Shown piece after piece: positions 1,453 through 21,246 of a stretch of DNA of 25,832 nucleotides. A program made the position numbers and the translations under genes. The DNA is from a virus. Location of the stretch: the IMG/VR virus record IMGVR_UViG_3300042891_001275, positions 1 to 25,832 of that record, one strand, 5' to 3'. The notes under the pieces were generated by a model. It was given only the letters and a program-made list of their open reading frames with translations. It had not been told where the DNA came from and did no database searches. Numbering within the stretch: position 1 is the first letter of the stretch; the number at the start of each line of letters is the position of its first letter.

Positions 1453-3342
1453 ATGAGCAATAACAAATATCTATTAGTATTAGAAAGATCTGAGGGTAAC
1501 CTTTCGGCTTCTAAGGACGGAGATAAATATGTGTTGGAAGGTGTTTTTACCGAAATCGGTGTAAAAAACAAAAACAATCGTATTTATGACGAGAGAGAAT
1601 TGATGCCACATATCAATGAACTTAAGGAAAAACTTAAAGGCAATAAATTGTTAGGTGAATTAGATCACCCGAAATCTTTCGATATCTCTTTAAAAAATGC
1701 ATCACACGTAATTGAAGATATTAATTACGATCCTGCTTCTAAAAAAGTAATGGGACGTATTAGACTTCTTAATACCGATGCTGGAAAACAAGCAATGGCT
1801 TTAGTCGATGCAGGTGTTCCTTTACATATTTCTAGTCGTGCTGCTGGAGTTGTAGAAAATAATGGTCACGTTAAAATCAAAAAAATGTTTACTTATGATT
1901 TAGTTGCAGATCCTGGATTTGCTAATGCTGAATTAAAAAGAGTTAACGAATCTTTTGGATTTGGTGATGACGATACAGTTGCAATTTATGAAACTGATAT
2001 CGATCTACGATTAGAAGAATCAACTATTGAAGAAGAAAAAACAGTAGTTGCTGAAGTTGTTGATACAGAAGATAAAACAAACACATCTATAACAGAAAAA
2101 CAAAACAACGCAATGGATCCTAAAAAATACATTACCGTTGAAGATTTTAATGAGTATTCTAAAATCGTTAAAAACGAATTTGAAAATCTTAAAAAATCTT
2201 TAACTGAATCCAAATCAAATGAAACCGCTTCAGTTAACGAAGGTCTTGTAAAATACACCGAAACTGTTGCAAAAAGAGTTAATCAAGTACAAGAATACGT
2301 TGAAAGATTAGCTGAATCTGTTGATGGTCTTATTTCACATAATGACTACATCATCGAAAACCTAGAAAAGGTTAAAAATTATGCTGAATTAGTTGGTGAG
2401 AAAACTAGCCAAGGAATTAACTACGGTGAGAAACTTGCTGAATCAGTTGACCACTTAATTGAATACACTAGATTAGTTGCTGAAAAAGCTGATCAAGGAA
2501 TTGAATTTACAAAATATGTTGCTAATGAATCTAACAACCGTTGGAAATATCAATCTTATATGAATGAGCAATTAGACAATGTAATCTCACATAACGATTA
2601 TATCGTTGAAGGAACTTCTTCAGTTATTGAGTACACTGAATACTTGAAAGAACAAACTGAAAACCTTTCTAATTACATGAACCACATCGTTGAACAAATC
2701 AATGAAGGTGCTATCTTCAAAACTGAAGATAAATCAAATGAAGGTGAAGAAACTAAAGCAACTGAAACTACTGAGGTAAATGAAGGAGCTAAAGCAACCG
2801 AAACTACACTTTCTTTTGAAGAAGATCTAACTAAGAAAATCGATTCTATCGTTGAAGCTGCTAAAGCTGAAAAACAAGCTTCTATCGTAAATAACAAATT
2901 ACACTTCTTAAATTTCATTTCTGAAAGTAAAAGAAATCAATTTGCTTCTTTAAACCCTGAAGTAAAAGATAAAGTAATCGCTGCTTTTGAAGGAAATAAA
3001 TTCTATGGTTCAGTTGATGCTGAAAGAATTTATGAATCAATTTTCTTAACTGAAATCGTTCCTCTTAACTGGTTATCTAATATGCCTGAGAAATATAAAG
3101 CTACTTGGAATGGTTTGAATGAATCACAAAAAACAGCTATTAAAGCTCAAGCTTCAGTTAAAGTTCTAGATTCACAATATAAAATCGATGACTTCTGGGC
3201 TACCAGAGATTTAAGAGATATTAAAGTTGAATTAAACGAAAGCACTGAACCTATCGTTATTAATGAATCAGCTAAATATGAATCTCCAGCTAATTACATG
3301 GAAACTGTTGAAGCTGAATTGAGAAGACGTTTCAAAAGATAA
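1453..3342 (+). CDS. Prohead protease (gp21-like) fused to capsid scaffold (gp22-like)
   Basis: Residues 1-166 form a T4 gp21-type (peptidase S77) prohead protease: GELDHP with His72, a second conserved His85 in ASHVIE, and HISSRAAG with Ser127/Ser128 as the nucleophile region. Residues 167-629 are acidic, Lys/Glu-rich and largely helical like a gp22 scaffold, with eleven consecutive 14-residue repeats (268 to about 420) and a conserved-looking C-terminal domain (FWATRDLRD near 590). In T4 these are separate proteins of 212 and 269 residues; here one 629-residue frame carries both. The junction reads VNE-S (164-167), and further [ILV]NE-[SGA] sites occur through the scaffold part, so the precursor may process itself. 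An internal ATG at 2113 (Met221) could give free scaffold as well. Domain calls are from sequence; self-cleavage is inference. Confidence 0.88.
   Translation: MSNNKYLLVLERSEGNLSASKDGDKYVLEGVFTEIGVKNKNNRIYDERELMPHINELKEKLKGNKLLGELDHPKSFDISLKNASHVIEDINYDPASKKVMGRIRLLNTDAGKQAMALVDAGVPLHISSRAAGVVENNGHVKIKKMFTYDLVADPGFANAELKRVNESFGFGDDDTVAIYETDIDLRLEESTIEEEKTVVAEVVDTEDKTNTSITEKQNNAMDPKKYITVEDFNEYSKIVKNEFENLKKSLTESKSNETASVNEGLVKYTETVAKRVNQVQEYVERLAESVDGLISHNDYIIENLEKVKNYAELVGEKTSQGINYGEKLAESVDHLIEYTRLVAEKADQGIEFTKYVANESNNRWKYQSYMNEQLDNVISHNDYIVEGTSSVIEYTEYLKEQTENLSNYMNHIVEQINEGAIFKTEDKSNEGEETKATETTEVNEGAKATETTLSFEEDLTKKIDSIVEAAKAEKQASIVNNKLHFLNFISESKRNQFASLNPEVKDKVIAAFEGNKFYGSVDAERIYESIFLTEIVPLNWLSNMPEKYKATWNGLNESQKTAIKAQASVKVLDSQYKIDDFWATRDLRDIKVELNESTEPIVINESAKYESPANYMETVEAELRRRFKR
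2254..2715 (+). repeat. 42-bp (14-residue) tandem coding repeat in the scaffold
   Basis: From Tyr268 the protein repeats exactly every 14 residues for ten full units and a partial eleventh. Each starts Tyr, Phe or His, has a hydrophobic residue at position 5, usually Glu or Asn at 7, and a hydrophobic residue at about 12. Two units are nearly the same (HNDYIIENLEKVKN and HNDYIVEGTSSVIE). Fourteen residues equal two heptads, so a long continuous coiled coil is expected. DNA copies have diverged, so this is an old protein-level repeat. Confidence 0.85.
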
Positions 3343-3366
3343 TTTATAACCCATACAATAACACTT

Positions 3367-3398
3367 CAATGAACTTACTTTGATCGGTAAGTTCATTG
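3367..3398 (+). terminator. Hairpin after protease-scaffold gene, probable terminator
   Basis: Perfect 12-bp inverted repeat, CAATGAACTTAC and GTAAGTTCATTG, around an 8-base loop, 25 bases after the stop codon. The T tract after it is weak, so termination may be partial or the hairpin may serve as an RNA-processing or stability element. Confidence 0.6.
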
Positions 3399-3424
3399 CT
3401 AATATTAAAATAATCTAATACTCT

Positions 3425-3440
3425 TAGATATATAATGTAA
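3425..3440 (+). promoter_or_regulatory. Putative phage late promoter before major capsid gene
   Basis: TTAGATATATAATGTAATAA carries the second copy of GATATATAAT (3428-3437), 76 bases before the capsid start and just after the 3367-3398 hairpin. Hairpin then promoter would let the capsid gene be expressed separately and at a high level. Confidence 0.5.
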
Positions 3441-3513
3441 TAAACGCTATCATTGCTAAGACTCAAAAAGCAAAAATGCGTAACTATAAAACAATAAAAA
3501 CAAACATTAAAAA

Positions 3514-5112
3514 ATGTACTTAATTAACGAATCTGAAATTTTCGGTAAATGGGCTCCAATCTTGGAATCTAACACTGGAATCACTGAGCGTTCTAAAGTT
3601 GAGTGGATGTCAAAATACTGTCATTACCATGAACTTTATGAAAACAACTCTTTAGCACAACTAGGAGCTGTAAACGGTATGGGAGCTACTCGTTTCCCAG
3701 GTAACCCTGGAACACAAGATGCTTTCTCTACACAAGCAACTGGATCTGGTGATAAAGCTCACACACTTCTTCCATTAGCAATGCAAGTTGCTGCACAAAC
3801 TGTAGGTCTTGACCTTGTACCAGTTGTTCCAATGCCTGGTCCAATGGGTGTATTAACTTACCTTGACTTTGTTTATGGTGGTGGTCAAACTTCTGGAACA
3901 GGAGTTAACGTTCCTCTTTTAATCAAAGCTAACGTAGGTTCTACTGCTGCTGTAGGTGCTTCAGCTGTTACTAACGGTGTTACTTTCTACTATGTAGGAG
4001 CTTCTCGTTTAGATGGTAATGCTATCTACCGTATCGATGGTTCTCTTTCTTCTGGAACTATCTTAACTAACCTTGCTGGTGCAACAGCGGTTGCTGCTTT
4101 CTTCGGAACTCCAACTTCAGTTGAATTAGTAAAAGCTCTTGAAGATCACATCACTGGTTTCTCTGGTCAAGCTTTAGCTAACAATGACTACACTGGAACT
4201 GATATCAACGATCCTTATTCTAGAGCTCAAGGTGAGTCTACGACTGACAACGTAATGAACTTAAGTTTATTCAACAAATCAGTTGAAGCTAAGACTTTCC
4301 AAGTTGCTGCTGCAGTAACTCGTGAGCAAGTTCAAGACTTGAAACAATTTGGTATCGATGCTGTATCTCAAGTAGAATCAGTACTTATCAATGAGTTAAC
4401 TCAATCAATCAACAAAAACATCCTAGGACGTTTATTCGCTTTAGGAGAAAGAAACCACGCTCAAGTTATTACTACTCAAGGAACTAACTTCTTCGTAAAC
4501 TTAGGAGCTACTGCATTAACTGTTACTGCTTCTGCTTCTGCTAACACTGCTACTGCATTCGGTGGATATATCCAAACTACTTCTTTATTGAACGCTTCTA
4601 TGGCTCCTACTGAAATCTTAAACAGTGCTTCAGAAAACTTACACACTCGTCAACGTAAGATCATGTCTAAAATCTTAGCTATCGCTAACTTGATCGCTAT
4701 TAGAGGTCGTCGTGGTCCAGCTACTTTCGTAGTAACTAACGGACAAGTTTGTTCAGCTTTACAAGATGTTGCAGGTTTCGTACCAGCTCCAATGGCTAAC
4801 ACAATCAACCAAATGAGTGGATCTCTTTACCCAATCGGTACTCTTGCAGGTCTTGCTATCTACAACGATCCAAACATGGCTTGGAACGATACTCGTATGT
4901 GTGTAGGTCGTAAAGGTGACGGTAACTCTCCAGGACTTGTATTCATGCCTTACTTAATGGCTGAATCGGTTCAAACTATCGCTGAAGGTACTATGGCTCC
5001 GAAAGTTGCTGTAAAATCTCGTTATGCTTTAGTAGAGGCTGGTTTCCACCCACAAACTATGTACTTTACTTCAGGTGTATTTATGTCTTCCGATTTCGGT
5101 TCATTGGTATAA
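3514..5112 (+). CDS. 23: Major capsid protein, T4 gp23-like
   Basis: Main head shell subunit; 532 residues against 521 in T4 gp23. The N-terminus SEIFGKWAPILES lines up with T4 AELLNKWKPLLEG. LDLVPVVPMPGPMG is the conserved block present in T4 as IAFDICGVQPMNSPTG, and the segment near 255-300 (VEAKTFQVAAAVTREQVQDL, then FGIDAVSQVESVLINELTQS) matches the gp23 block on the E-loop side. The product opens MYLINE-S, the [ILV]NE-[AS] site seen in other leaders here; a LYE-N site at 41-44 is an alternative nearer the T4 maturation position. Codon choice is strongly biased to a few codons, as expected for a very highly expressed gene. It has its own putative promoter and a strong terminator. Confidence 0.95.
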   Translation: MYLINESEIFGKWAPILESNTGITERSKVEWMSKYCHYHELYENNSLAQLGAVNGMGATRFPGNPGTQDAFSTQATGSGDKAHTLLPLAMQVAAQTVGLDLVPVVPMPGPMGVLTYLDFVYGGGQTSGTGVNVPLLIKANVGSTAAVGASAVTNGVTFYYVGASRLDGNAIYRIDGSLSSGTILTNLAGATAVAAFFGTPTSVELVKALEDHITGFSGQALANNDYTGTDINDPYSRAQGESTTDNVMNLSLFNKSVEAKTFQVAAAVTREQVQDLKQFGIDAVSQVESVLINELTQSINKNILGRLFALGERNHAQVITTQGTNFFVNLGATALTVTASASANTATAFGGYIQTTSLLNASMAPTEILNSASENLHTRQRKIMSKILAIANLIAIRGRRGPATFVVTNGQVCSALQDVAGFVPAPMANTINQMSGSLYPIGTLAGLAIYNDPNMAWNDTRMCVGRKGDGNSPGLVFMPYLMAESVQTIAEGTMAPKVAVKSRYALVEAGFHPQTMYFTSGVFMSSDFGSLV

Positions 5113-5134
5113 TCCTAACTAGTATCATAACATT

Positions 5135-5166
5135 AAAGGAGTTCTCTTTCGAGGACTCCTTTTTTT
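5135..5166 (+). terminator. Rho-independent terminator after major capsid gene
   Basis: AAAGGAGTTCTC pairs with GAGGACTCCTTT (12 bp, one G-U pair) around a TTTC loop and runs into a T7 tract. It lies 22 bases after the capsid stop and would insulate the very strong capsid transcript. Confidence 0.88.
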
Positions 5167-5171
5167 ATGCA

Positions 5172-5196
5172 GTTATATTTGTTGATATATAATAAA
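5172..5196 (+). promoter_or_regulatory. Composite promoter region: TATATTTG box and GATATATAAT box
   Basis: TATATTTG (5174-5181, the Bacteroidota -7 form TAnnTTTG) is followed directly by the third copy of GATATATAAT (5184-5193), between the capsid terminator and the next start at 5227. No convincing -33 TTG is seen at 17-23 bases upstream of the host-type box, so the phage-type box is the better candidate. Confidence 0.5.
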
Positions 5197-5226
5197 ACTA
5201 CAAGTGTAAATAAACATATAAGAATT

Positions 5227-5769
5227 ATGATGTTCATAAAACCAACAAATGTTCTTCGAATTCAAGAAGAACTAAAAGAATACCAAAGGTTGTGTGCTGA
5301 GTTTAAACACTCTCCTGCAAAAGAGGAATTTGAAGATATCGTTAAATTTATTTTGATGCAAAGTGGATCAGCAACTGGTGCATTAGCAGAATCAATTTCC
5401 GAATCTGATATGAATTTCCTATTTGAAAATTTCAATGAAAAACTAGAGCCACTTTTAGAAGCTCACGTCGAAACTGACGGTGAAGCAGAATTCGATACTG
5501 CGGTAGGAGCTGTTAAAACTGCTGCAAAAACTGCTGGTGCACTAGCAATAGGTACTGCTGTAGGTGTAGGAGTTTGGATTGCTTATATGTTTAAGAAGAA
5601 TAAAGTTAAATCTGCTATTAAAGAAGAAAATGCTGCTGCAATGCAAATCCTAGATGATTATTCAGCGTTGTATCAAAAGAAAATTCAATTAGCAGAATTG
5701 GAAGGTAAGGAAATGCCTAAAGCGGAATACCCTGCTTATCCAACATATACTCCAGCATCTAAAGAATAA
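5227..5769 (+). CDS. Small single-pass membrane protein, function unknown
   Basis: About 180 residues. The frame opens 60 bases earlier at 5167, but that start would put the putative promoter at 5172-5196 inside the gene, so the ATG at 5227 (or the adjacent one at 5230) is preferred. The N-terminal 85 residues are charged and helical. There follows an Ala/Gly-rich hydrophobic segment at about 102-122 ending in WIAYMFKKNK, probably one membrane span with the Lys-rich flank inside. The tail is helical, then Pro/Tyr-rich (PAYPTYTPA). It lies between the capsid gene and a candidate core protein, so a head-assembly or initiation role at the membrane is possible, but I do not recognise the family. 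Confidence 0.75.
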   Translation: MMFIKPTNVLRIQEELKEYQRLCAEFKHSPAKEEFEDIVKFILMQSGSATGALAESISESDMNFLFENFNEKLEPLLEAHVETDGEAEFDTAVGAVKTAAKTAGALAIGTAVGVGVWIAYMFKKNKVKSAIKEENAAAMQILDDYSALYQKKIQLAELEGKEMPKAEYPAYPTYTPASKE

Positions 5770-5779
5770 AATACTGAAA

Positions 5780-7174
5780 ATGAAAGACAACCAGATATTC
5801 GAATCCCATCTCATTTCGTTGTATGAAAATACAATAAATGAATCCGATGAAAAGAAAGAAAAGAAAGAAAATCCTGAAGTAGAGAAATTCAAAGAATCTA
5901 CGGTAAAAAATCCAAAGACAGGAAATAAAGTTAAAGTTTCTACGGTATTGAAAGATCCTGAAAATCCTTTACATGATAAAGTGAAGAAGGAATTAGATAA
6001 AGTGAAAGCTTCAGCTGAGGGTGGAGAAGACAAAGAAGATAAAGAAGAGGAGGAAAACCCAGAAGAAAATATCAAAGCTCTAACTCAAAATATTGAAGAT
6101 GAAAGAGTAGCTATCGAAGCTTCTAAGAATAAAATAAAGGACTTAGAAAAGCAGAAAAAAGCTTCTACGGATCCTGATTCTTTTGATAAAGCTATCCAAA
6201 AGGAAAAAACTCGTATAGAGCAAGGAGAAGAAGATATTAAAGAAATGAAAGCTAAAAAAGAAGCAGAAAAGAAAAAAATTGCTTCTGCTCCTGAAACTCC
6301 TTCTAAAACTGAAGAAAAGCCAGAAACAACTGAAACTCCTGAAGAAAAACCTGAAACAACTGAAACTCCCGAAGAAAAACCTGAAAAGGGTGAAGGTGAT
6401 GAAGGTGAAGGCGAAAAAGATACAGCTAAAATCGAAGCTCTTAAAAAAGAAATTGATAAGCTAGAATCAGTATATGATTCTAAGAAAGAAGCTACACAAA
6501 ACAGATTTGGTAGTTTAGCCGAAAAAACTGATTCCCTAGCGACCAATGGTCTTCTAGAAGAATTTGTTAAAAAAGAAAGAGCTAAAGCAAAAGCTGAATT
6601 TAACGAAAAAATACTTTCTTTCTTGGTTGATGCTGAGCAAAAGACTGAAATTCAAGACAGAATAAAAGAGGAAAATGCTCGAGCTAAAAAGATTGAAAAT
6701 GAATTAGATCAAGCTCAAAAAGCAGCAGATGAAAAAAATGCTGACGATCCTAAATATCAAGAAGCTAAAGAACAAACTGCTGGAGCATCAGGTGAAGATG
6801 TTGATATGACGGTTTCTAAATCAGAAGATAAACCTAAAGGTAAATCCGAAGAAGGAGAGAAAACAAAATCTCCCGAAGAAGCTGCAAAAGAACAAAAGAA
6901 AAAAGAGATTGATTATAATCTAGAAGTTCTTACTACTAAAATCGAAAAGGTTAAATCTGCTGCTGATAAAGCTAAAGCAGATGGTAAAGACGAGAAAGTT
7001 TTAGCGGCCATCAATAAGAATTATGAAGATATGAAGAAAGCCATCGATGATCTTAAATCTCAAAAAGAAAAACTTGGTGAATCTTTTGATTCGATTGAAT
7101 TAGAAATTTGGGCTTTAGATGTTGCTGTAACTTCACTTCTAGAACAAATAGAAACCGGTTATCTTTTTGAATAA
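5780..7174 (+). CDS. Highly charged coiled-coil protein with capsid-targeting-like leader, candidate internal head protein
   Basis: 464 residues, dominated by Lys, Glu, Asp and Ala with long predicted coiled-coil stretches and a Pro/Glu/Thr linker of repeated PETTETPEEK near 180-205. The N-terminus reaches NTINE-SDEK at residues 18-25, the same [ILV]NE-[AS] junction as in other leaders in this window. The last 40 residues turn hydrophobic (LEIWALDVAVTSLLEQI), so a small folded C-terminal piece is likely. Its position after the capsid gene and its composition recall T4 prohead core proteins, but I see no alignable homologue. It overlaps the next gene by one base (TAATG), suggesting translational coupling. 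Confidence 0.78.
   Translation: MKDNQIFESHLISLYENTINESDEKKEKKENPEVEKFKESTVKNPKTGNKVKVSTVLKDPENPLHDKVKKELDKVKASAEGGEDKEDKEEEENPEENIKALTQNIEDERVAIEASKNKIKDLEKQKKASTDPDSFDKAIQKEKTRIEQGEEDIKEMKAKKEAEKKKIASAPETPSKTEEKPETTETPEEKPETTETPEEKPEKGEGDEGEGEKDTAKIEALKKEIDKLESVYDSKKEATQNRFGSLAEKTDSLATNGLLEEFVKKERAKAKAEFNEKILSFLVDAEQKTEIQDRIKEENARAKKIENELDQAQKAADEKNADDPKYQEAKEQTAGASGEDVDMTVSKSEDKPKGKSEEGEKTKSPEEAAKEQKKKEIDYNLEVLTTKIEKVKSAADKAKADGKDEKVLAAINKNYEDMKKAIDDLKSQKEKLGESFDSIELEIWALDVAVTSLLEQIETGYLFE
6311..6385 (+). repeat. 30-bp tandem coding repeat (2.5 units)
   Basis: Two and a half units encoding EEKPETTETP, nearly identical at DNA level (last-unit changes are silent except at the end). A flexible, acidic linker; copy number may vary among relatives. 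Confidence 0.8.
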
Positions 7175-7662
7175 TGATTGAATTAAAAAGGCAAAATAGA
7201 GGTAAAGCTCCTACTAAATGGGGAATACTTCTAAAAGGACTTCCACCTAGATATCGAAAGATTTTATCAAATAATCAGATATTTAAGAGATACTCTGAGG
7301 ATGATAGATTCATTCTAAGCATATTTAAAATGGAAGATGCCAATATAAAGGTATCATATTTAAAGAGACCGTTCATCAATCCTGAATCAAAAGAGGTGTC
7401 TACGTATTCAAACGTGATAGGACAATATAAAATTTTCGATTGGACATGTGCTTATTGTAAGACCCCAATTAAATCCAGGATAGATAATTATAAAGCAAGC
7501 AATTTTACTTGTCAAAAATGTTTTAACTACTACATTAAGGATTCTCAAACGTATAATCAAAGAATCGTAGATGCATCAGTTGAATTTACTACATTTTGTA
7601 AGAGATTAATGCTAGATAACCAGAAAAAATTTATAAAATACATAAAGAAAAATGAAAACTAG
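7174..7662 (+). CDS. Small zinc-ribbon protein, function unknown
   Basis: 162 residues, basic. Cys92-x2-Cys95 (CAYC) and Cys113-x2-Cys116 (CQKC) are spaced as in a four-cysteine zinc ribbon. The N-terminal half (LPPRYRKIL, RFILSIFKMED) looks like a small mixed alpha/beta domain, and the C-terminus is Lys-rich. The start overlaps the previous stop (TAATG), and the end overlaps the ATP-grasp gene by 11 bases, so it belongs to that operon. Zinc-ribbon proteins in T4-like late regions can be late transcription factors or assembly factors, but nothing here decides between these. Confidence 0.75.
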   Translation: MIELKRQNRGKAPTKWGILLKGLPPRYRKILSNNQIFKRYSEDDRFILSIFKMEDANIKVSYLKRPFINPESKEVSTYSNVIGQYKIFDWTCAYCKTPIKSRIDNYKASNFTCQKCFNYYIKDSQTYNQRIVDASVEFTTFCKRLMLDNQKKFIKYIKKNEN

Positions 7663-9136
7663 ATTCTCATATTTTAGTGACTTCGTTTTAAACGAAGCAA
7701 AGAAATCTCCTTCAGCTCCAAAGGGAAAAATAAAAGTTATTTTGCTATCTAATGTTAGTGAAGAATCTAAAACGGTTCCTAGCATTAAAGCTGAATGTGA
7801 AAGAAGAGGTGTTAAATTTGCTGTAATCAATATTGATAAAGCAAAACTTACTAAGAATCCAGACGGAGAAACATTCACTATTTATGATAATGAATCTAAG
7901 ATGAAAATATCTTCTGAGGACACTGCTATCTTAACCAGAAGAGGTGTTGTTAAAAACACTTACACTAGAGATCTTGTTGAACAATTAGAGAGTGCTAATT
8001 TCTTTGTTGTAAACACTTTAGAATCTATTATTGCTTGTGAAAACAAATATGTTACATCTAAAATTCTTATGGATGCAGGAATTCCTGTTCCGAGAATGGC
8101 ATTGATTGAAAATGAAGAATCTATCGACGATGCTGTTAAAGCTATAGGTGGACAATTTCCAGTGGTTCTTAAAATGCTTTCAGGTTCACAAGGAATTGGA
8201 GTTTCTATTGTTGATTCAATAGGTTCATTGAAATCAGTTATGCAAACAATTTGGAAGGCTAATTCAAGTGTTGAATTGCTAATTCAAGAAAAAATCGAAT
8301 CTGAATATGATTTGAGAATTCACGTTTTAACTCGTAAATTCAATTCACCTACACCTGACGATACTGATTCGGTTCTTCTTGGATATATGAGACGTAACCG
8401 AGTTAAGAAAGACTTTAGAACTAATTACTCATTAGGTGGAACCGTTGAAAAAACCAAAGTAACTCCTGAACAAGAAAAAATTGCAATTGAATCTGCAAAA
8501 GCTATTGGTTGTAATTGGTGTGGTGTTGATATCATCGTTGATAAGAAAACAGGTAAAAACTACGTATTAGAAGTTAACGCATCACCGGGAACTGAAGGAC
8601 TTAAAAAAGCTACAGGAGTTGATGTTGTAAAAGATATTATTGACTTTATTTCTGATAAACAAAATTGGATTCGTTCTCGTAAAACTATCGGATTCCGTGA
8701 AGTTGTTACGATTCCTGGTCTTGGAGATTTCGTTTCTAAATTTGATACAGGAAACGGAGCTCTTTCATGTTCATTAACTTATGACGAGGCTAAACTTGCC
8801 GATGATAAAAAGACGGTTTCATGGGAATTAGGTGGAAAAAAATTCACAAATAAAGTTATTGGATTCTCTAATGCCGAAGTTGGTCATGTTGTTCAAGAGA
8901 GACCAATCATTACAATGGATATTGTTTTTGCAGGTAAAACTTACAAAGATGTACATGTTTCATTGGTAGATAGAAAAGAGAAATCAACTAAATTCTTGGT
9001 CAATCGTAAATTTATGGAAAGAATTGGATGTTCGGTTAGTCCATTCAAAACATTCGTAATAACTTCTTTTGACGGAGAATACAACGTAGGAGAAGCAAAA
9101 GGAAATAATCATATAGGAATCAAATTCGAAAAATAA
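7652..9136 (+). CDS. RimK-like ATP-grasp glutamate ligase with retropepsin-like C-terminal domain and capsid-targeting-like leader
   Basis: 494 residues. A leader, MKTRFSYFSDFVLNE-A (cut expected after Glu15), is followed by a RimK-type ATP-grasp enzyme: FPVVLKMLSGSQGIGV (nucleotide-binding loop, about 168-183), YDLRIHVL, DFRTNYSLGG and LEVNASPGTEGLKKATG (Glu307 and Asn309 as Mg ligands). The family adds glutamate to protein or peptide C-termini, such as ribosomal protein S6. From about 345 a second domain carries FDTGNGALSCSL (Asp365-Thr-Gly) and a downstream SLVDR...FLVNRKFM segment, the pattern of the RimB/COG4067 retropepsin-like proteases often encoded beside rimK. Both activities in one chain could be writer and eraser, or one domain could recognise substrate. 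The leader suggests the enzyme is packaged and injected. Domains are seen; packaging and substrate are inference. Confidence 0.88.
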   Translation: MKTRFSYFSDFVLNEAKKSPSAPKGKIKVILLSNVSEESKTVPSIKAECERRGVKFAVINIDKAKLTKNPDGETFTIYDNESKMKISSEDTAILTRRGVVKNTYTRDLVEQLESANFFVVNTLESIIACENKYVTSKILMDAGIPVPRMALIENEESIDDAVKAIGGQFPVVLKMLSGSQGIGVSIVDSIGSLKSVMQTIWKANSSVELLIQEKIESEYDLRIHVLTRKFNSPTPDDTDSVLLGYMRRNRVKKDFRTNYSLGGTVEKTKVTPEQEKIAIESAKAIGCNWCGVDIIVDKKTGKNYVLEVNASPGTEGLKKATGVDVVKDIIDFISDKQNWIRSRKTIGFREVVTIPGLGDFVSKFDTGNGALSCSLTYDEAKLADDKKTVSWELGGKKFTNKVIGFSNAEVGHVVQERPIITMDIVFAGKTYKDVHVSLVDRKEKSTKFLVNRKFMERIGCSVSPFKTFVITSFDGEYNVGEAKGNNHIGIKFEK

Positions 9137-9137
9137 T

Positions 9138-9407
9138 ATGAAAAATCTTAAATCTTTATCACAATACATTAACGAGGCATCCACTAGCATAATGGCTGGG
9201 GACCGTACTATTAATGAACCAAAAGAATATATGTTCTTTGGTAATCTTAAAACTATCAAATCCAGAATTGATGAAATGTTAGCTATGGACCCTGTTAAAG
9301 TTGAAGCTATGTTGCAAGATGGACATGCTTGGGCGGTGGATCATATAGCAACATCAAAGGATGATATTGAAGAAGTTGCTGATTTTCTAAAGAATAACGT
9401 AAAATAA
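9138..9407 (+). CDS. Small protein with capsid-targeting-like leader
   Basis: 89 residues. The leader [14 protein letters not shown] closely resembles T4 internal-protein leaders (MKTYQEFIAE-A) and the leader of the protein at 12578. After it come a short acidic region and a helical C-terminal domain ([31 protein letters not shown]). A second INE at 25-27 is followed by Pro and is less likely to be cut. One base separates it from the ATP-grasp gene, so the two are probably co-expressed. Trimmed, it would be about 76 residues, the size of T4 internal proteins. No family recognised. Confidence 0.8.
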
Positions 9408-9414
9408 ATCTCTT

Positions 9415-9720
9415 ATGCCATCATTATCTCAAGCAGTATATCTTATTAACGGAAGATTGGTTGATTATATAGGTAATCCTATAGACCTTACACAAATTGG
9501 TCTTTTAGGTCCTACTGGACCTACAGGAGCAATAGGGTCTCAAGGAGCTACAGGATTAAGAGGTGCTACTGGACCTACTGGACCTACTGGACCTCAAGGA
9601 GTTGTAACGGTTGTAACTGTTAGTGCTACTGGTGGAACTTCAACGGTTACTTATGGAAGTACTGGAGGAACCGGATCTACTCAAGGTGGTGGTGGAATCA
9701 ATCCAAGTGGAGGAAGCTAA
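9415..9720 (+). CDS. Small collagen-like virion protein
   Basis: 101 residues. An N-terminal domain of about 30 residues ([19 protein letters not shown]) precedes eleven Gly-X-Y triplets, mostly GPT, GAT and GPQ, then a Val/Thr-rich segment and a Gly/Ser-rich tail. Gly-X-Y runs of this sort trimerise in phage fibres, and short collagen-like proteins are common phage surface proteins, so a head or tail fibre or decoration role is likely. Its place at the end of the packaged-protein operon, just before a strong terminator, fits a late virion gene. The near-identical GGACCTACTGG repeats could change copy number by slippage. Confidence 0.8.
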
Positions 9721-9750
9721 TATTATAAAACTACATACAAAACTATACAC

Positions 9751-9782
9751 AAAAAGGACAATCGAAAGATTGTCCTTTTTTA
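9751..9782. terminator. Bidirectional rho-independent terminator between convergent genes
   Basis: Perfect 13-bp stem, AAAAAGGACAATC and GATTGTCCTTTTT, closed by a GAAA tetraloop, with A and T runs on both sides. It serves the collagen-like gene on the + strand and the SpeD-like gene on the - strand. Confidence 0.92.
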
Positions 9783-9800
9783 TTTTGAACTAATTTCTAA

Positions 9801-10244
9801 TTAATTATTACAAATACAAGCTTTTTCAGAAATTGGTTTAGAAACGAATTCAGTTCCTTTCCCAGAACCTGAATCAGAAACTCTAAGTCCTTCATTTCTA
9901 TCAATTGCCATCCAATCAAATTCAACTAGATCCATTTCATTTAAATGATCTATAACAATTTGTATGTCATATTTTTTACAAGAATAGATGTCAAATTGGA
10001 ACATAGGTACCTCATAAGCATCCCAAATATGGATTGATGAATGTGAAGTTGCCAAAGTTACGGTTCCAGTTAAACCTTCATTTCCAATTTCGTCTACATA
10101 TACAGAAGTAGGTCCGGCCACAACGACCATACCAACTCTCTCTACCAAACGTTTGAACCAGTTGTTAAGGTCTTCTGCTGACTTGAAAGGTTTTTTACAA
10201 TAACCTTTAATGAGCAGGTGTTGATGATAAGGTACAAATCCCAT
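9801..10244 (-). CDS. speD: S-adenosylmethionine decarboxylase-like pyruvoyl enzyme (SpeD homologue)
   Basis: 147 residues and the only minus-strand gene in the window. The SpeD core is clear: HLLIKGY near the start (usual HLL/HLV), then GLTGTVTLATSHSSIHIW, matching the bacterial pattern GVSGVVVISESHLTIHTW. Ser67 would become the pyruvoyl group after self-cleavage, His72 matches the catalytic His, and Cys89 in DIYSC matches the catalytic Cys. The residue before the cleavage Ser, normally Glu, is Thr66. SpeD makes decarboxylated AdoMet for spermidine synthesis. Some phage and bacterial SpeD homologues are reported to act instead on ornithine or arginine, so substrate is open. T4-like cyanophages also carry speD, which supports an auxiliary metabolic role. 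It ends at the shared terminator and is divergent from the next gene. Confidence 0.82.
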   Translation of the reverse strand: MGFVPYHQHLLIKGYCKKPFKSAEDLNNWFKRLVERVGMVVVAGPTSVYVDEIGNEGLTGTVTLATSHSSIHIWDAYEVPMFQFDIYSCKKYDIQIVIDHLNEMDLVEFDWMAIDRNEGLRVSDSGSGKGTEFVSKPISEKACICNN

Positions 10245-10316
10245 TAGTTAATAGTTTTTTGTTTATTTATCTAAAACCGACCAAATTTCAACGATATAAA
10301 AGGATGTTAATAAAAA

Positions 10317-10397
10317 TGTTAATAACTTTTTTCAAAAACATTGTTTACTTTGAGGAATTTGTTTTATATTTGTAATATCAAATTAAAAATAAACAAT
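10317..10397 (+). promoter_or_regulatory. Phage promoter module, copy 1 (GTTAATAAC box and TATATTTG)
   Basis: TGTTAATAACTTTTTT at 10317, a TTG at 10341-10343, and the Bacteroidota -7 box TATATTTG at 10365-10372 (21 bases between), then an A-rich leader to the ATG at 10398. The whole 81 bp recurs at 14143-14223 with four mismatches. GTTAATAAC is a near-palindrome (GTTA-N-TAAC), so may bind a dimeric regulator. A further partial copy, TGTTAATAA, lies at 10304. Confidence 0.85.
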
Positions 10398-10613
10398 ATG
10401 ACTAATCAAAATCAAAAAGAAACGAAAACAACCACTTTTCAACGTACAAGCTACCTTTTAGGAATGCTATTTTTTGGATTCGTTACTTATTTCACTTTAA
10501 CCGGAGATCTTCAAAATCACATACACTTTGCCGGTATAGGAAACGAAATTGGATTTGCTACAATGGGTATGTTACTTACTGCAATCTTTTTTTATCTAAC
10601 TGTCTCTGAATAA
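10398..10613 (+). CDS. Small two-span membrane protein, function unknown
   Basis: 71 residues. The frame extends up to 10341, but the promoter module occupies 10317-10397 and the ATG at 10398 sits directly after its A-rich leader, as in the copy before 14225, so this start is chosen. A polar N-terminus of 17 residues is followed by spans at about 18-35 (LLGMLFFGFVTYFTL) and 50-69 (IGFATMGMLLTAIFFYL), with a short HIHF-containing loop. Its own host-type promoter suggests early or middle expression. Small early membrane proteins of phages often act in exclusion or host takeover, but no family is recognised. Confidence 0.75.
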   Translation: MTNQNQKETKTTTFQRTSYLLGMLFFGFVTYFTLTGDLQNHIHFAGIGNEIGFATMGMLLTAIFFYLTVSE

Positions 10614-10646
10614 CATATAAAATTTATAAACTTTAAAAATAAAAAA

Positions 10647-11060
10647 ATGTCTAAATCGCAGATCAAGAGGAAATTAAAGCTATTTTTCGGTAAAACTTGG
10701 AGATACGCTAGTAGAATAGTAAATCCAGAAAAAAGAATTCCCGATCTTTCCCCTATGCAATCAAAAACAGTATCTATTATCCATAGGATAATTAGGAATC
10801 CGGAATCAACATTAATAAGAGACTATGATACAGGATTTTACTATGCCGAGTTAAACCACTACTTCATCAAATTTTCGGATAATACGGCAATCATAACAAA
10901 CGGCAAGTTTTCTTATTACGTCTCTTTACCTTATGCAACATGCACAAGATTGAGAACCTGCTTTGAAGACTACATATCAAAAAGACGTAAGGTATTAGAA
11001 AATAAATATGATCTGAATACTCTACAAAACTTTGACGAAATCCTTAATTCACTTTCATAA
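10647..11060 (+). CDS. Small basic protein, function unknown
   Basis: 137 residues; strongly basic N-terminus (KSQIKRKLKLFFGKTWRYASR) then a mixed alpha/beta region with several aromatic residues (DTGFYYAELNHYFIKF) and a helical C-terminus. There are 33 AT-rich bases between it and the membrane-protein gene, with no clear terminator, so both are probably on the transcript from the 10365 promoter. I do not recognise the family. Confidence 0.7.
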   Translation: MSKSQIKRKLKLFFGKTWRYASRIVNPEKRIPDLSPMQSKTVSIIHRIIRNPESTLIRDYDTGFYYAELNHYFIKFSDNTAIITNGKFSYYVSLPYATCTRLRTCFEDYISKRRKVLENKYDLNTLQNFDEILNSLS

Positions 11061-11065
11061 TCATA

Positions 11066-11076
11066 CATATAATAAA
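11066..11076 (+). promoter_or_regulatory. Possible phage promoter box CATATAAT before clamp loader gene
   Basis: ACATATAATAAAAAATC lies 16 bases before the clamp loader ATG and resembles the late boxes at 1422, 3428 and 5184, but lacks the leading GAT. Weak evidence in AT-rich DNA. Confidence 0.25.
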
Positions 11077-11089
11077 AAATCAATAAAGA

Positions 11090-12043
11090 ATGAATCCGAA
11101 AAAAGCACTGTGGACAGAACGATACCGACCTTCGAAGCTAGATGAATTAATCTTACCTGATCGAATCAGTCGTAAATTGGAAAATGGTTTGTATATGAAC
11201 TTCTTATTTTATGGAAGTCCAGGTACAGGAAAAACATCAACTGCAAAAGTTCTTGCAGGTGACAATCCTTATATGTACATCAACTGTTCTGTTGAAACTG
11301 GTGTTGATACTGTAAGAACCAAGATTATGGAATTCTGTTCCACTCTATCGGTTATGGATGGACAGAAAAAACTTAAAGTTGTAATTCTCGACGAGTTCGA
11401 TGGTGTATCAGATCAATACATGAAAGCTCTTCGTGGAACTATCGAACAATTCGAAAAAACTGCTCGATTCGTTGCAACATGTAATTACATCAATAAGATT
11501 CCCGATAACATTCAATCTCGTTTCGAATGCTTTAACTTCGATTTTTCCGAAGAAGAAGAACAAGAAATCGAAAAGAAATATTTCAAACGAGTTTACGATA
11601 TCATTAAAACCGAAGGTATGGACATCGAAAAAGATGCTCTTATCGAATTGGTCCGTCGTAAATTCCCTGACTTAAGATCTATTATTAATGTTCTTCAAGG
11701 ATATCATGCCGAAGGAAAGACAAAAATTACATCGGATGATGTTAAGAAATTCCATGGTGTATTTAAAGATCTTTACGAACACATTTTTAATTCCACAAAC
11801 GATGAAGTAAAAAATTACCAATACTTGGTATCGAACTACTCATCTAAAGTAGATGATGTAATTCAATCTCTAGGAACCGACTTTATTGATTATATACAAA
11901 CAGAAAAACCTCAGTTAATGCGTAAAGCAGGTGAAATATGTTACGAAACAAACAAACATTCATATGAACTTCGTTTCGTAATTGATCCGGTTGTTACTAT
12001 GCTTTCTTTGGTTTATAAAATACAACAAATCGTAAGATCATGA
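11090..12043 (+). CDS. 44: Sliding clamp loader large subunit, T4 gp44-like AAA+ ATPase
   Basis: 317 residues, close to T4 gp44 (319). It opens with the clamp-loader signature LWTERYRPSKLDELILP. Walker A is GSPGTGKTS (42-50), Walker B is VVILDEFD (97-104), sensor 1 is FVATCNY (127-133), and SRFE (143-146) holds the arginine finger. The C-terminal third is the helical collar domain. In T4, four gp44 subunits with one gp62 load the gp45 clamp for DNA synthesis and late transcription. No clear gp62 is present beside it; the small genes at 12040 and 12270 are coupled to it by overlaps but are too short and not alignable by eye. Confidence 0.93.
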   Translation: MNPKKALWTERYRPSKLDELILPDRISRKLENGLYMNFLFYGSPGTGKTSTAKVLAGDNPYMYINCSVETGVDTVRTKIMEFCSTLSVMDGQKKLKVVILDEFDGVSDQYMKALRGTIEQFEKTARFVATCNYINKIPDNIQSRFECFNFDFSEEEEQEIEKKYFKRVYDIIKTEGMDIEKDALIELVRRKFPDLRSIINVLQGYHAEGKTKITSDDVKKFHGVFKDLYEHIFNSTNDEVKNYQYLVSNYSSKVDDVIQSLGTDFIDYIQTEKPQLMRKAGEICYETNKHSYELRFVIDPVVTMLSLVYKIQQIVRS

Positions 12044-12270
12044 GACAAATAACCCAAGCCGATCTAGACCGATTAATTGAGGTCTATAAAAATGGAATTG
12101 ATAAATGGTTCCGTGACGAATTATTCCAAAAAGATTGTGCCTATTACGAAGGTGCAATTAAAAGAGGATCCGAAGCCTTAGGTATTGAAGTTCCTTTTAC
12201 TTTCCTTCAAATTACCGAAGAATTGAAGAAAGACTTCGATTCAGGCTATAACAATTTTTGGATTGGATAA
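12040..12270 (+). CDS. Small acidic protein coupled to clamp loader gene, function unknown
   Basis: 76 residues, beginning with ATGA overlap on the clamp loader stop and ending with TAATG overlap onto the next gene. Mostly helical, acidic and aromatic (KWFRDELFQKDCAYYEGAI). The overlaps imply coordinated translation with the clamp loader. A replacement for a clamp-loader accessory part is conceivable from context but not from sequence. Confidence 0.7.
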   Translation: MRQITQADLDRLIEVYKNGIDKWFRDELFQKDCAYYEGAIKRGSEALGIEVPFTFLQITEELKKDFDSGYNNFWIG

Positions 12271-12554
12271 TGAAAGATCTACTTAAAGCACATAGAGAGA
12301 TAACCGAAGCTATATTCTTAGCTTTCGGTATTGAAAATGGATATGGAGATATCGACGATAAGACAGATGTGAAATGGGATGCAACCGAGGATTCTATTCA
12401 TTGGTTAGAGGATGATGAAATCTATGCTAATGATGTTCTACGAGGTCCTGCACAATTTGAAAATTTCATTCTGTATTACGTCGATAATGGTGCAGGTGAC
12501 GAATTCTATCAAATCTTTGATACCACCCTAAGGGATGAGAATCTCGAAGGATAA
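12270..12554 (+). CDS. Small acidic protein, function unknown
   Basis: 94 residues, rich in Asp and Glu. A TTG at 12258 would extend it by four residues, but ATG at 12270 forms the TAATG overlap used repeatedly in this genome and is preferred. It starts MKDLLKAHREITEAIFLAFG and continues with aspartate-rich segments (GDIDDKTDVKWDATEDS) and LRGPAQFENFILYYVDNG. Strong acidity might suggest a nucleic-acid mimic or regulatory partner, but no family is recognised. Confidence 0.7.
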   Translation: MKDLLKAHREITEAIFLAFGIENGYGDIDDKTDVKWDATEDSIHWLEDDEIYANDVLRGPAQFENFILYYVDNGAGDEFYQIFDTTLRDENLEG

Positions 12555-12577
12555 ATAAAAAAAACATAAAGAATAGA

Positions 12578-13048
12578 ATGAAAAATTTACCTTCTTTTGA
12601 GCAATTCGTAAATGAGGCTCAAGATTTTAGTGATATAACTAAATATTTCTGTATAAATCCTGAAGATTCAGGGGTTATAAGAAAAAATTCTAAATTCCGT
12701 CAATCTCAAGGTATGTATGTAGATACTAAATTCGGGAGAGTTGAAAGACAAAAACTAATTAATTATATTTTTGAAGGGATTAAGAAGAAATATAAAGACG
12801 CAGAATTAATTCCAAATGATCAACCTTATTCAGCTTTTACTGATGTTATTAATTACGCAGGAAATAAATTACGATTTTCCGATACTCATATGAATATCGA
12901 AGAGGCTAAAGATTTTCAATTGAAATTACCTAAAATCGAAAAACATATTAAATATATTCATAGTTCTATAACTACGCTAGATAAAACAATAAACATTGAA
13001 TTTGGTGATCTAGATCGTATCATAAATTATATTCTAGAGGTGATCTAA
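12578..13048 (+). CDS. Protein with capsid-targeting-like leader, function unknown
   Basis: 156 residues. The leader MKNLPSFEQFVNE-A (cut expected after Glu13) is of the same form as in the proteins at 7652 and 9138 and matches T4 internal-protein leaders. The remainder is a basic alpha/beta protein (GRVERQKLINYIFEGIKKKY, DKTINIEFGDLDRIINYILEVI) without a recognised motif. It lies among replication genes rather than head genes but is followed by its own terminator at 13069. If the leader is functional, this is a packaged protein encoded away from the head cluster, as with several T4 internal proteins. Confidence 0.75.
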   Translation: MKNLPSFEQFVNEAQDFSDITKYFCINPEDSGVIRKNSKFRQSQGMYVDTKFGRVERQKLINYIFEGIKKKYKDAELIPNDQPYSAFTDVINYAGNKLRFSDTHMNIEEAKDFQLKLPKIEKHIKYIHSSITTLDKTINIEFGDLDRIINYILEVI

Positions 13049-13144: not shown

Positions 13145-13627
13145 ATGGCAACATTCTTTATCAATCGATTTCCAATTTGTACTTTAGTCTACAAAGAAGC
13201 TGCAGAAATGCAAGGTCACAATTCAGATTTTTCTAAATCTCTTGCTTCGGCTCGAGCAATATTCTTTGCAGCCGCAAAGAAAGGCTTTAAAAATAAAAAT
13301 GGTAAACACTACAACGGTCTAAATTCTCCAGACCTTGAAATGCCACAAATCTATTCTATCGATTTTGCTGGAATCGATGCATTTTGTATCGAAACTGAAA
13401 ATGGAACTAGATCATGTCTATTAGACGGTAAAATATTCGAACCTCAAGATTACGATAAAATCGAAGCAAAAATCATATCATTAGTAGGTGAATCCGGTTT
13501 TCAAAAAATGCGAGAAGAAATCCAAACTAGATTATCTAAACTAGCAGATATCAATTCTTCTAAAGTATTTGATGTATACGCATCATTAAGAGATAAAATA
13601 CGTTCAACCGAATTCATCAACGCTTAA
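13145..13627 (+). CDS. Conserved-looking protein of unknown function
   Basis: 160 residues, expressed from promoter module copy 3, one base before the ligase-like gene. Segments include an Ala-rich helix (SLASARAIFFAAAKKGFKNK), a beta-rich middle (IYSIDFAGIDAFCIETENG) and a helical C-terminus. It ends EFINA, which is not a leader. I do not recognise a family. Coupling to the adenylation-domain protein suggests a possible shared nucleic-acid role, but only by context. Confidence 0.7.
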   Translation: MATFFINRFPICTLVYKEAAEMQGHNSDFSKSLASARAIFFAAAKKGFKNKNGKHYNGLNSPDLEMPQIYSIDFAGIDAFCIETENGTRSCLLDGKIFEPQDYDKIEAKIISLVGESGFQKMREEIQTRLSKLADINSSKVFDVYASLRDKIRSTEFINA

Positions 13628-13628
13628 T

Positions 13629-14141
13629 ATGCTAACATTTCCACCTAAACCAACTGCAATACTCCCACACGAATCTCACATTGAAAATTACATCATTCAA
13701 CCCAAGTGGAGAGGATGGAGAATTGCAATTCATAAAAATCAATCTTGGACTAGGAAAGGAGTTTCAATTCCCGTTGAAACTTCTTTCCCTGAAAAGGAAT
13801 ACGACTATCAATTAGATGGTGAAATTATTTCTATCGATAAAGAAGTAGAACATCAAGTTCGAACTGCAATTAAGAATGGTAGATATCAAATAAGAATTTT
13901 CGATATATGGGTTCCTTCAAGACCTAGTATGACTATCGAAGAAAGACTGCAATTATTAAAAGACGATTTTGGTATAGTCGTAGAAACTCATTCAGCAAAA
14001 ACCGGTAAAGATGTGGAAGCTTTATTTAAGATGTTTACTACTCGAGGAAATGAAGGTCTTGTAATGAAGAAAAAAGGATCGGTTTATTTGTCATCCGAAA
14101 AAGGAAATAAGATCGATACTAATTGGTCTAAAATCCGATAA
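13629..14141 (+). CDS. Minimal DNA-ligase-like adenylation domain protein
   Basis: 170 residues holding the nucleotidyltransferase motifs of ATP-dependent DNA ligases: motif I QPKWRGWRI with Lys26 as the adenylated lysine and Arg31; motif III LDGEI (Glu65); motif IIIa RIFDIW; motif IV EGLVMKK (Glu142, Lys147); and a motif V-like WSKIR near the end (Lys168). The Asp of the usual KxDG is Arg28. The chain stops right after motif V, so the OB-fold domain that closes over nicked DNA is missing. The usual catalytic core is about 300 residues or more. It may be a working minimal ligase with a partner, or a deadenylating or end-modifying relative. It follows 13145-13627 by one base and is near RNase H, which fits Okazaki fragment processing. 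Confidence 0.8.
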   Translation: MLTFPPKPTAILPHESHIENYIIQPKWRGWRIAIHKNQSWTRKGVSIPVETSFPEKEYDYQLDGEIISIDKEVEHQVRTAIKNGRYQIRIFDIWVPSRPSMTIEERLQLLKDDFGIVVETHSAKTGKDVEALFKMFTTRGNEGLVMKKKGSVYLSSEKGNKIDTNWSKIR

Positions 14142-14142
14142 T

Positions 14143-14223
14143 TGTTAATAACTTTTTTCAAAAACATTGTTTACTTTGAAGAAAATGTATTATATTTGTA
14201 ATATCAAATTAAAAATAAACAAT
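14143..14223 (+). promoter_or_regulatory. Phage promoter module, copy 2 (GTTAATAAC box and TATATTTG)
   Basis: 81-bp near-identical copy of 10317-10397 (four mismatches, all between TTGA and the -7 box). GTTAATAAC at 14144-14152, TTG 21 bases before TATATTTG (14191-14198), and an A-rich leader ending one base before the ATG at 14225. Confidence 0.87.
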
Positions 14224-14224
14224 T

Positions 14225-14464
14225 ATGATTAACAATGCAGATTATTTAATTCAGAAATACGCTGAAGCACGAGAAAAATCTATGGAATATGGAAATCATG
14301 ATCCAGGTCATTCCTATTGGAAAGGTGTAATGGACACATACCATTCCTTACTCATCCTCGGTTTCAACGATTGGGCAGAACATGGAACTACAGGTTACTT
14401 CGTTTTCACGGAAGGAATGTCTTACGATGAAGCCCTAAATGCAGTTAATCAATTTAATGCATAG
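14225..14464 (+). CDS. Small protein of unknown function
   Basis: 79 residues from promoter module copy 2. Helical N-terminus (YLIQKYAEAREKSMEYG), a His-containing middle (NHDPGHSYWKGVMDTYHSL) and FVFTEGMSYDEALNAVNQF at the C-terminus. Family not recognised. Two genes placed behind almost the same promoter (this and 10398) encode unrelated products, so the promoter, not the gene, was duplicated. A 28-base gap leads to the RNase H gene, so the promoter probably also serves that. Confidence 0.72.
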   Translation: MINNADYLIQKYAEAREKSMEYGNHDPGHSYWKGVMDTYHSLLILGFNDWAEHGTTGYFVFTEGMSYDEALNAVNQFNA

Positions 14465-21206: not shown

Positions 21207-21246
21207 ATTTTGTCGAATAAATAATAAAAACACGTTCGACAAATGT
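21207..21246 (+). promoter_or_regulatory. Hairpin enclosing the start codon of the T9SS cargo gene
   Basis: TTTGTCGAA (21209-21217) and TTCGACAAA (21235-21243) are perfect inverted repeats around a 17-base AT-rich loop. Pairing can extend through the ATG (ACAAATGT with ACATTTTGT, one bulged T). The RNA stem would hide the initiation codon. It lacks a T run, so is not an ordinary terminator. Confidence 0.55.

Follow-up and report, generated by a model that had tools for sequence, protein, structure and literature searches.

Why should proteins whose mature parts are unrelated begin with nearly the same short peptide? The question is raised by a 25,832-base virus fragment with T4-type head genes, IMG/VR record IMGVR_UViG_3300042891_001275 (the whole analysed stretch, hereafter the window). 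A first-pass annotation had noticed in it four proteins whose N-terminal leaders end in Asn-Glu, a capsid protein starting with MYLINE and at least seven [ILV]NE-[SGA] sites in the scaffold, and all of these are present in the sequence (Table 1). Capsid targeting sequences (CTSs) and their cargo are already known from phage T4, where positions 4 and 7 of the leader serve for targeting and positions 8 and 10 for processing (PMC9026906, in part). The comparisons described here indicate that the leaders of the window and of its relatives are very probably CTSs of the T4 type, cut by a gp21-like protease that is fused to the scaffold.

The leader peptide in the window and its relatives

The relatives analysed were the best 80 of 585 IMG/VR loci, and the main motif count was made on nine contigs, namely the window and eight relatives. 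Genes were called with a simple open reading frame (ORF) caller, which returned 35 genes for the window; because it sometimes takes a later start, as for many capsids (that of the window was started at an internal Met), motif counts can miss leaders. A motif was considered N-terminal at an offset of 4–26, and its expected number was calculated from its internal rate. Residues are numbered back from the cut, so that the Glu is P1 and the Asn P2, with P1′ following the cut, which is marked by an arrow.

The motif [ILV]NE[ASG] was found N-terminally 120 times compared with 21.3 expected, which bears out the enrichment that the first-pass annotation had proposed as a check. In a gene-wise count on seven contigs, without the window and without G004 (a near-relative with a median identity of 86% to G001, dropped in the stricter counts), the figures were 94 and 17.9. 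On the nine contigs, the control motif with N and E swapped gave 8 (5.2 expected), and replacing the Glu at P1 by Q or D gave 2 (3.5 expected) and 7 (4.9 expected) respectively. When 16 other residues were placed at P2, L was clearly in excess (41 vs. 10.7 expected), Q slightly so (10 vs. 4.2) and the remainder near or below expectation, the pooled count for all non-N residues being 151 vs. 129 expected; the N-terminal [ILV]LE[ASG] excess may represent a second form of the leader, or second cuts behind it. In the 35 called genes of the window the motif occurs 13 times, i.e. seven times in the protease-scaffold, four times in leaders and twice elsewhere, and the N-terminus of the capsid adds one more. 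In T4, YerA41, S-SSM7 and Mosig it is N-terminal 2, 2, 0 and 0 times (0.4–1.4 expected), and no expansion of the leader geometry was seen in S-SSM7, Mosig and YerA41 (0, 2 and 1 vs. 0.4, 0.7 and 1.4 expected).

The consensus of the leader is MK-N-[IL]-x-[ST]-[FY]-[ED]-E-F-[LVI]-N-E↓[SA], with a length of 13 residues in 82 of 120 strong leaders, and conservation ends at the cut, with information dropping to 0.1–0.3 bit from P2′ onward. In the strong leaders P7 is F or Y in 117/120, P4 is F, W or Y in 114/120 and P3 is L, V or I in 119/120, it being noted that the columns P4, P7 and NE are partly so by construction, because the score that selected the leaders used them. This concern is lessened by the following counts and by the T4 ranking given below. 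With P2 left free, N-terminal matches to [FYWL]xx[FYW][ILVM]xE had N there in 108 of 139 cases, and with P1 left free after [ILVM]N, it was E in 108 of 129. Profiles built with one contig left out at a time returned 152 N-terminal matches of at least 8 bits in the nine contigs, vs. 8.2 expected from internal windows, and each large relative contig had between 9 and 28. The tagged set considered below consists of 170 proteins of at least 8 bits in ten contigs, with 8 of the 170 expected by chance; six have no E at P1, and three belong to the window. Some of the tagged proteins with Pfam matches are probably false leaders, for example a DegT aminotransferase whose 'leader' has no NE.

The strict [ILV]-N-E rule of the first-pass annotation proved too narrow. 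N stands at P2 in 141 of the 170 tagged proteins, and S, L, F, T and others occur in its place, several of them in clear leaders. The leader of the RimK-type protein described below ends in ITE-A in L033, L040 and L043, homologues of the protein encoded at 9138 have N, K, G, T or F, [LVI]LE is also part of the N-terminal excess, and the favoured cleavage site of the window capsid is LYE. N at P2 is preferred, not required.

Behind the cut, the tagged proteins have little in common. By BLAST, which would miss remote relationships, the mature parts of the 170 fall into 129 families, 105 of them singletons, and some families have an untagged homologue called in another contig, partly perhaps because of a wrong start. 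The MAFFT alignment of 144 of the 170 (five tagged genes crossing 20-kb cuts and the 21 of the huge phage LR756500 were left out of this and of the Pfam set) has the consensus MKxIxxFxEFLNE, followed only by x. At positions not belonging to the motif, leaders of one contig resemble each other more (0.344) than leaders of different contigs do (0.282), a difference reached by none of 500 label shuffles (G004 left out). No more than 34 of the 144 proteins have a Pfam match when all families are added up, CTP_transf_like being found in four. The tagged nucleotidyltransferase-like proteins L117:10639-11217 and L105:9679-10257 carry a GRFQPxHxGH or similar motif, and proteins of this kind possibly supply NAD+ early in infection. 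In LR756500, four related copies of tagged proteins (e.g. 13446-14282 and 180972-181730) appear by eye to be leucine-rich-repeat-like. Known defence families were rejected as an account of the tagged genes, since PADLOC gave only three weak matches among the 144.

The four tagged proteins of the window

All four leaders reported by the first-pass annotation stand, but the protein encoded at 5780 is more likely a core protein, considering its K/E-rich composition and its position near the capsid gene, and its product is probably part of the prohead core. In relatives it gives mostly partial matches, and L016 (same contig as L125) shares its N-terminus.

The best fold matches of the protein encoded at 7652 are RimK enzymes, one of them RimK together with the substrate RpsF; graspetide ligases belong to the weaker matches. 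In the domain behind the ligase, Zn_protease (PF05618, RimB-type) was detected in 6 of 12 orthologues and not in the window copy at E 0.01; RimB is a retropepsin-like protease (PMC11957791, in part). The alignment comprises these 12; G010, whose call begins at MLTE↓A, G002, called from an internal Met, two distant phages, and L034 and L082, which are nearly identical, were excluded. Among the first 31 residues of the 12, E15 and A16, i.e. P1 and P1′, are the only invariant ones. In the predicted model, residues 1–24 have a pLDDT (the confidence score of the model) below 50 and the first strand spans residues 28–33, so that the leader is modelled as disordered ahead of the enzyme fold. In the window, one extra residue between F and NE keeps this leader below 8 bits. 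The RimK homologue of Pelagibacter phage Mosig starts with MQVQPFKNYLEE↓A. As a side observation, the fusion encoded at 7652-9136, with its putative head-import leader, could combine the writing and the erasing of poly-glutamate tags in a single phage protein.

Homologues of the small protein encoded at 9138 keep a leader-like N-terminus with a varied P2, and the linker behind it diverges. The mature part of the protein encoded at 12578 had no other tblastn match at 1e-3 among the loci analysed, and its best PHROG match has an E-value of 0.041.

Table 1. Head-assembly features and leader-bearing proteins of the window (positions within the 25,832 bases; the arrow marks the predicted cut).
Feature	Position	Strand	Evidence
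gp21-like prohead protease domain, residues 1-166	1453..1950	+	Peptidase_S77 E 1.4e-13, phrog_207 E 1.4e-40
Scaffold half; coiled-coil-like repeats (by eye), basic C-terminus RRRFKR	1951..3342	+	Fusion kept across aligned orthologues
Scaffold site SVNE↓G (E263)	2233..2241	+	
Scaffold site QINE↓G (E418)	2698..2706	+	
Scaffold site EVNE↓G (E444)	2776..2784	+	
Scaffold site GLNE↓S (E557)	3115..3123	+	
Scaffold site ELNE↓S (E596)	3232..3240	+	
Scaffold site VINE↓S (E605)	3259..3267	+	
Major capsid protein, gp23 family	3514..5112	+	Pfam Gp23 E 5.7e-37
Capsid N-terminal site INE↓S (E6), start MYLINE↓S	3523..3531	+	Conserved
Predicted capsid maturation site LYE↓N (E43/N44)	3634..3642	+	Aligns with PAU LME-64↓N65
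21-residue leader MKDNQIFESHLISLYENTINE↓S (...SLYENTINE↓S) of 464-residue K/E-rich protein (gene 5780-7174)	5780..5842	+	
15-residue leader MKTRFSYFSDFVLNE↓A of RimK-type ATP-grasp ligase with RimB/retropepsin-like domain (gene 7652-9136)	7652..7696	+	Pfam RimK 8.1e-37
13-residue leader of 89-residue protein (gene 9138-9407)	9138..9176	+	
13-residue leader MKNLPSFEQFVNE↓A of 156-residue orphan (gene 12578-13048)	12578..12616	+	

Protease, scaffold and major capsid protein

The protease and the scaffold-like part share a single ORF of 629 residues (1453-3342, plus strand). The former matches Peptidase_S77 (PF03420) with a score of 51.3 bits against a cut-off of 27, and keeps the GELDHP and HISSRA blocks in the protease alignment. 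It is closed by R-[VI]-N-E-[SAN] in 40 of 40 non-redundant orthologues (RVNE↓S at E166 in the window), and a cut at this site is predicted to separate the two parts and so release the protease. An L/I-x-E specificity of the protease is suggested by the conservation of the sites.

Past residue 166, the window scaffold contains six [ILV]NE[ASG] sites vs. 0.18 in shuffled sequences (none of 2000 shuffles reached six), and the 40 scaffolds together contain 138 vs. 7.5, the junction site being excluded. No excess was seen in the protease part (1 vs. 2.0) or in the portals (0 vs. 3.7), and whole capsids gave 44 vs. 4.0; in all these shuffle counts the orthologues are not independent. At least one further [ILVM]NE site is present in the scaffold of every one of the 40 orthologues, as a single one in L091, and in eight of eight large contigs no called protein exceeds the protease-scaffold in its number of [ILV]NE sites, with a tie in G002. 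In some phages leaders and scaffold are alike in their use of P2. In MA9V-2, N is at P2 in 14 of 19 scaffold [ILV]xE[ASGN] sites (0.5 expected) and the clear leaders end in INE or VNE; the P2 residues of T4 gp22 are A, F, T, S and V, without N. The scaffold repeats (YxEYVAEN...-like, by eye) vary in number among the relatives, and their number is possibly linked to head size.

As to the capsid, [LM]INE-[SAQT] is found at its start in the window and in 14 aligned IMG/VR capsids, down to 54% identity, and a MYLINE-type site is absent from the capsids of PAU, PTm1 and pT24. The PAU capsid has 585 residues, 520 of which are in the virion according to N-terminal sequencing (PMC5646251, in part), and its mature N-terminus aligns within one residue of LYE-43↓N44 of the window. 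At this column [LI]-x-E-[NS] is found in 21 of 23 aligned capsids, for example as LNE-S (L047, MA9V-2), INE-S (PTm1) or IYE-S (MaF61); the two exceptions are T4, whose known site is not aligned there, and a Lak ORF called from a later start. The alignment with the sequenced PAU N-terminus favours LYE-43 over the cut after MYLINE-6 that the first-pass annotation had implied. The window capsid is probably cut at LYE-43, and MYLINE-6, probably no more than an additional site in the propeptide, may be an extra cut. The capsid shares the [LI]xE-[NS] cleavage motif, but with Y at P2 in the window.

Comparison with T4 and other phages

The likeness to T4 claimed by the first-pass annotation is supported by a leader profile made without T4, which ranks IPIII and IPII first and second among 270 T4 ORFs, and by the concentration of the motif in the scaffolds of the same phages. 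IPI is outside the 14 best T4 matches, and gp24 is the 14th. In MKTYQEFIAE of IPIII the key residues are Y4, F7, I8 and E10, and in the leader described here [FY]7, F10, [LVI]11 and E13, i.e. the spacing is equal and three more residues stand in front, so that P7, P4, P3 and P1 match T4 positions 4, 7, 8 and 10. As in T4, a short N-terminal peptide (7–20 residues) precedes an L/I-x-E site, one tag is carried by unrelated mature parts, and the cleavage motif is common to scaffold and capsid (in the LR756500 scaffold the NE form is found at one site only). The N-terminal position is shared with IPI, IPII, IPIII and Alt, the [YF]-x-x-F-[I]-x-E↓[AS] spacing with IPII and IPIII, and a gp21-family protease is present in both systems. 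In contrast, the T4 CTS has 10 residues instead of usually 13 and A or T at P2 instead of a preferred N, its cargo is three internal proteins plus Alt compared with 9–28 tagged genes per large contig, and only here is the protease fused to the scaffold.

In phiKZ and SPN3US, too, a gp21 relative cuts after Glu and at its own C-terminal side, and several head proteins are processed (PMC5694885 and PMC9026906, both in part). Their motifs, S/A-x-E and A-x-E respectively, are however different from the leaders described here, and their propeptides are often longer than 100 residues, unlike one short tag on many proteins. PAU is closer, with 11 ORFs that start with MKT[LI]xxL[YF]E↓[ASG] and five that start with a near variant of it, these 16 including the scaffold gp152 and gp154 ('internal capsid protein'), and with a capsid cut that aligns with the window; it differs in having mostly Y at P2, no excess of the F-x-x-F geometry (1 vs. 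1.3 expected) and protease and scaffold annotated as separate genes. Several PAU leaders (JQ362498, e.g. 112151, 112994, 113313) are followed by KLNE↓[AS]. PTm1, pT24 and MA9V-2 have, as the window does, one protease-scaffold ORF (527–1207 residues) in place of gp21 and gp22, but MA9V-2 has few leaders of this geometry (3 vs. 0.8 expected).

Function of the leader

If the T4 precedent holds, the aromatic [FY] at P7 and the F at P4 would attach the protein to the prohead core, after which the gp21-like protease on the scaffold would cut at [LVI]-x-E↓[SA]; it would also release itself at RVNE↓S and shred the scaffold, and the mature protein would stay in the head. Because the tag stands ahead of many unrelated proteins, each head would hold a payload of mature cargo, most of which would probably enter the host with the DNA, like T4 IPI and Alt. 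The first-pass annotation had proposed that a diverse set of proteins is packed for delivery to the host: the tagged set is real and larger than supposed, and its delivery is an extrapolation from T4. In our opinion the chances are about even that, in large T4-like phages of Bacteroidota, one cleavable head-import tag is a general loading code by which some two dozen unrelated effectors per virion, mostly orphans, for the greater part different from phage to phage, listable from protein N-termini and including a RimK-RimB-type enzyme, are delivered with the DNA.

Several observations weigh against the CTS interpretation. Compared with internal windows of T4, IPIII and IPII have an E-value of only 0.30, and one internal window outscores them, so that their rank is the stronger statement; the count of the generic pattern in T4 is weak as well (4 vs. 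1.2 expected). The NE form is not the only one enriched in the scaffold, where [ILV]AE is as enriched (196 vs. 27, partly because of repeats), and the whole class [ILV]xE reaches about double its number in shuffled sequences both there (1020 vs. 434) and in the protease domain (319 vs. 146). In LR756500 the leaders have mostly N, and some L, at P2, and N is found in only one of 12 scaffold [ILV]xE[ASGN] sites; N at P2 is not explained by the taste of the protease alone. The PAU figure of 520 out of 585 residues implies a cut after residue 65, one past LME-64, possibly an off-by-one in the table (PMC5646251, in part). YerA41_066, a RimK homologue annotated as 'structural protein', has no leader, and the YerA41 virion preparation also contained polymerases and helicases (PMC7354516, in part), for which reasons the annotation was rejected as proof of packaging. 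The literature searched gave no proteomic study of virions from this clade of phages, and some of the proteins with leaders may belong to the core and not enter the host at all.

The last point, extended to the whole set, leads to the alternative that tagged proteins only build the head, as core or accessory scaffold, and are imported without being injected. The tagged family with the widest distribution (7 of 10 contigs) contains a stretch that is acidic and rich in K and E, and its G002 member is encoded close to a head-closure gene; the composition and position of the protein at 5780 fit this as well. Scaffolds, on the other hand, would hardly be expected to include 129 families with 105 singletons, or enzymes such as RimK-RimB and nucleotidyltransferases. 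Tagged genes are also less often shared between contigs than untagged ones at 150–300 residues (27/52 vs. 316/434) and above 300 (13/20 vs. 322/391), with no difference at 80–150 (29/57 vs. 225/420) and a reversal at 50–80 (6/12 vs. 101/302). On balance, a purely structural role appears rather unlikely.

The similarity of the N-termini might also be a by-product of recent duplication, or of a copied start cassette with promoter and ribosome-binding site. Tagged genes do occur in runs, with 10 adjoining pairs in G001 (1.7 expected) and 8 in G010 (3.0 expected), adjacency being weak in G007 and G008, where 115 and 173 of 2000 shuffles reach it. Yet in six contigs the 39 bases encoding 13-residue leaders are 0.62–0.71 identical between unrelated genes, as against 0.28–0.39 for the 60-base flanks, and where leader amino acids are shared the codons agree at 0.57–0.73, close to the 0.56–0.79 expected from codon usage. 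Since the flanks differ and the codons agree only about as codon usage predicts, selection acts on the peptide, with no recent copying; given the divergent flanks and the randomised synonymous codons, recent duplication of the leader is rejected, and the mature parts are dissimilar. The by-product explanation is thus largely refuted and highly improbable, and what chiefly survives of it is an ancient duplication after which selection maintained the peptide. No more probable is the idea that the leader is read by another system, either as the leader of a ribosomally synthesized and post-translationally modified peptide (RiPP) acted on by the phage ATP-grasp ligase, or as a signal directing proteins to some other compartment. 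Binding of F-rich leaders is a property of graspetide enzymes, and the phage does encode a RimK-type ATP-grasp with graspetide ligases among its weaker fold matches. However, 21 tagged proteins were counted in the scanned 400 kb of LR756500, and tblastn at E 1e-5 did not find the ligase anywhere in its record, which makes a RiPP reading unlikely, and the profile retrieves known CTS proteins of T4.

Import through a T4-type CTS would be of interest because phage proteins injected with the DNA can counter host defences ahead of all phage gene expression; in T4, IPI counteracts GmrSD, and one strain of E. coli makes IPIII necessary (PMC9391042, in part). The RimK-RimB-type enzyme, if delivered in this way, could edit the host ribosome at once. 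A readable tag would also predict the injected set of uncultured phages, here 170 candidates in ten contigs (8 by chance), and it makes a prediction in T4 itself. The hypothetical 54-residue protein gp61.1 (NC_000866, 18966-19130; L227) starts with MKTFKEFIKE↓D and was third in the T4 leader scan, with a score of 9.0 vs. 11.6 for IPIII and IPII and an E-value of 0.60; it is possible that gp61.1 is an unrecognised internal protein of T4. A set this large, an N-rich form of 13 residues and its spread over uncultured phages were not found in the literature searched, which included few subscription journals and no bioRxiv preprints and was accessible in part; within the same limits, a search for 'capsid targeting sequence' gave no title on Bacteroidota or metagenomic phages. 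The jumbo-phage papers PMC13282480 and PMC7824862 do not mention capsid targeting.

Host and other features of the window

Besides the protease-scaffold and the capsid, the head genes of the window include a gp20 portal (Pfam Portal_T4, E 1.1e-72). Its nearest capsid in the phage collection is that of LR756500 (54%), followed by those of Lak phages, PAU, MA9V-2, PTm1 and pT24. The host genera on record are Tenacibaculum for PTm1 and pT24 and Chryseobacterium for MA9V-2, and the host of PAU was reassigned to Sphingobacterium (PMC3738902, in part); the phage of the window and its relatives probably infect Bacteroidota. A phage-encoded bS21 was looked for in a crude way, with no convincing result.

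A 639-residue protein (21243-23162) has a signal-peptide-like start and a C-terminus that by eye resembles a type IX secretion sorting domain, and might be secreted via a Bacteroidota-type route. Also by eye, collagen-like GPTGPTG repeats were noticed at 9415-9720 and a long N/G/S/T-rich repeat protein at 24541-25830. Finally, the ORF at 9801-10244 lies on the minus strand amid plus-strand genes, a similar protein being encoded on the opposite strand in G005, and may be related to SpeD-type decarboxylases.

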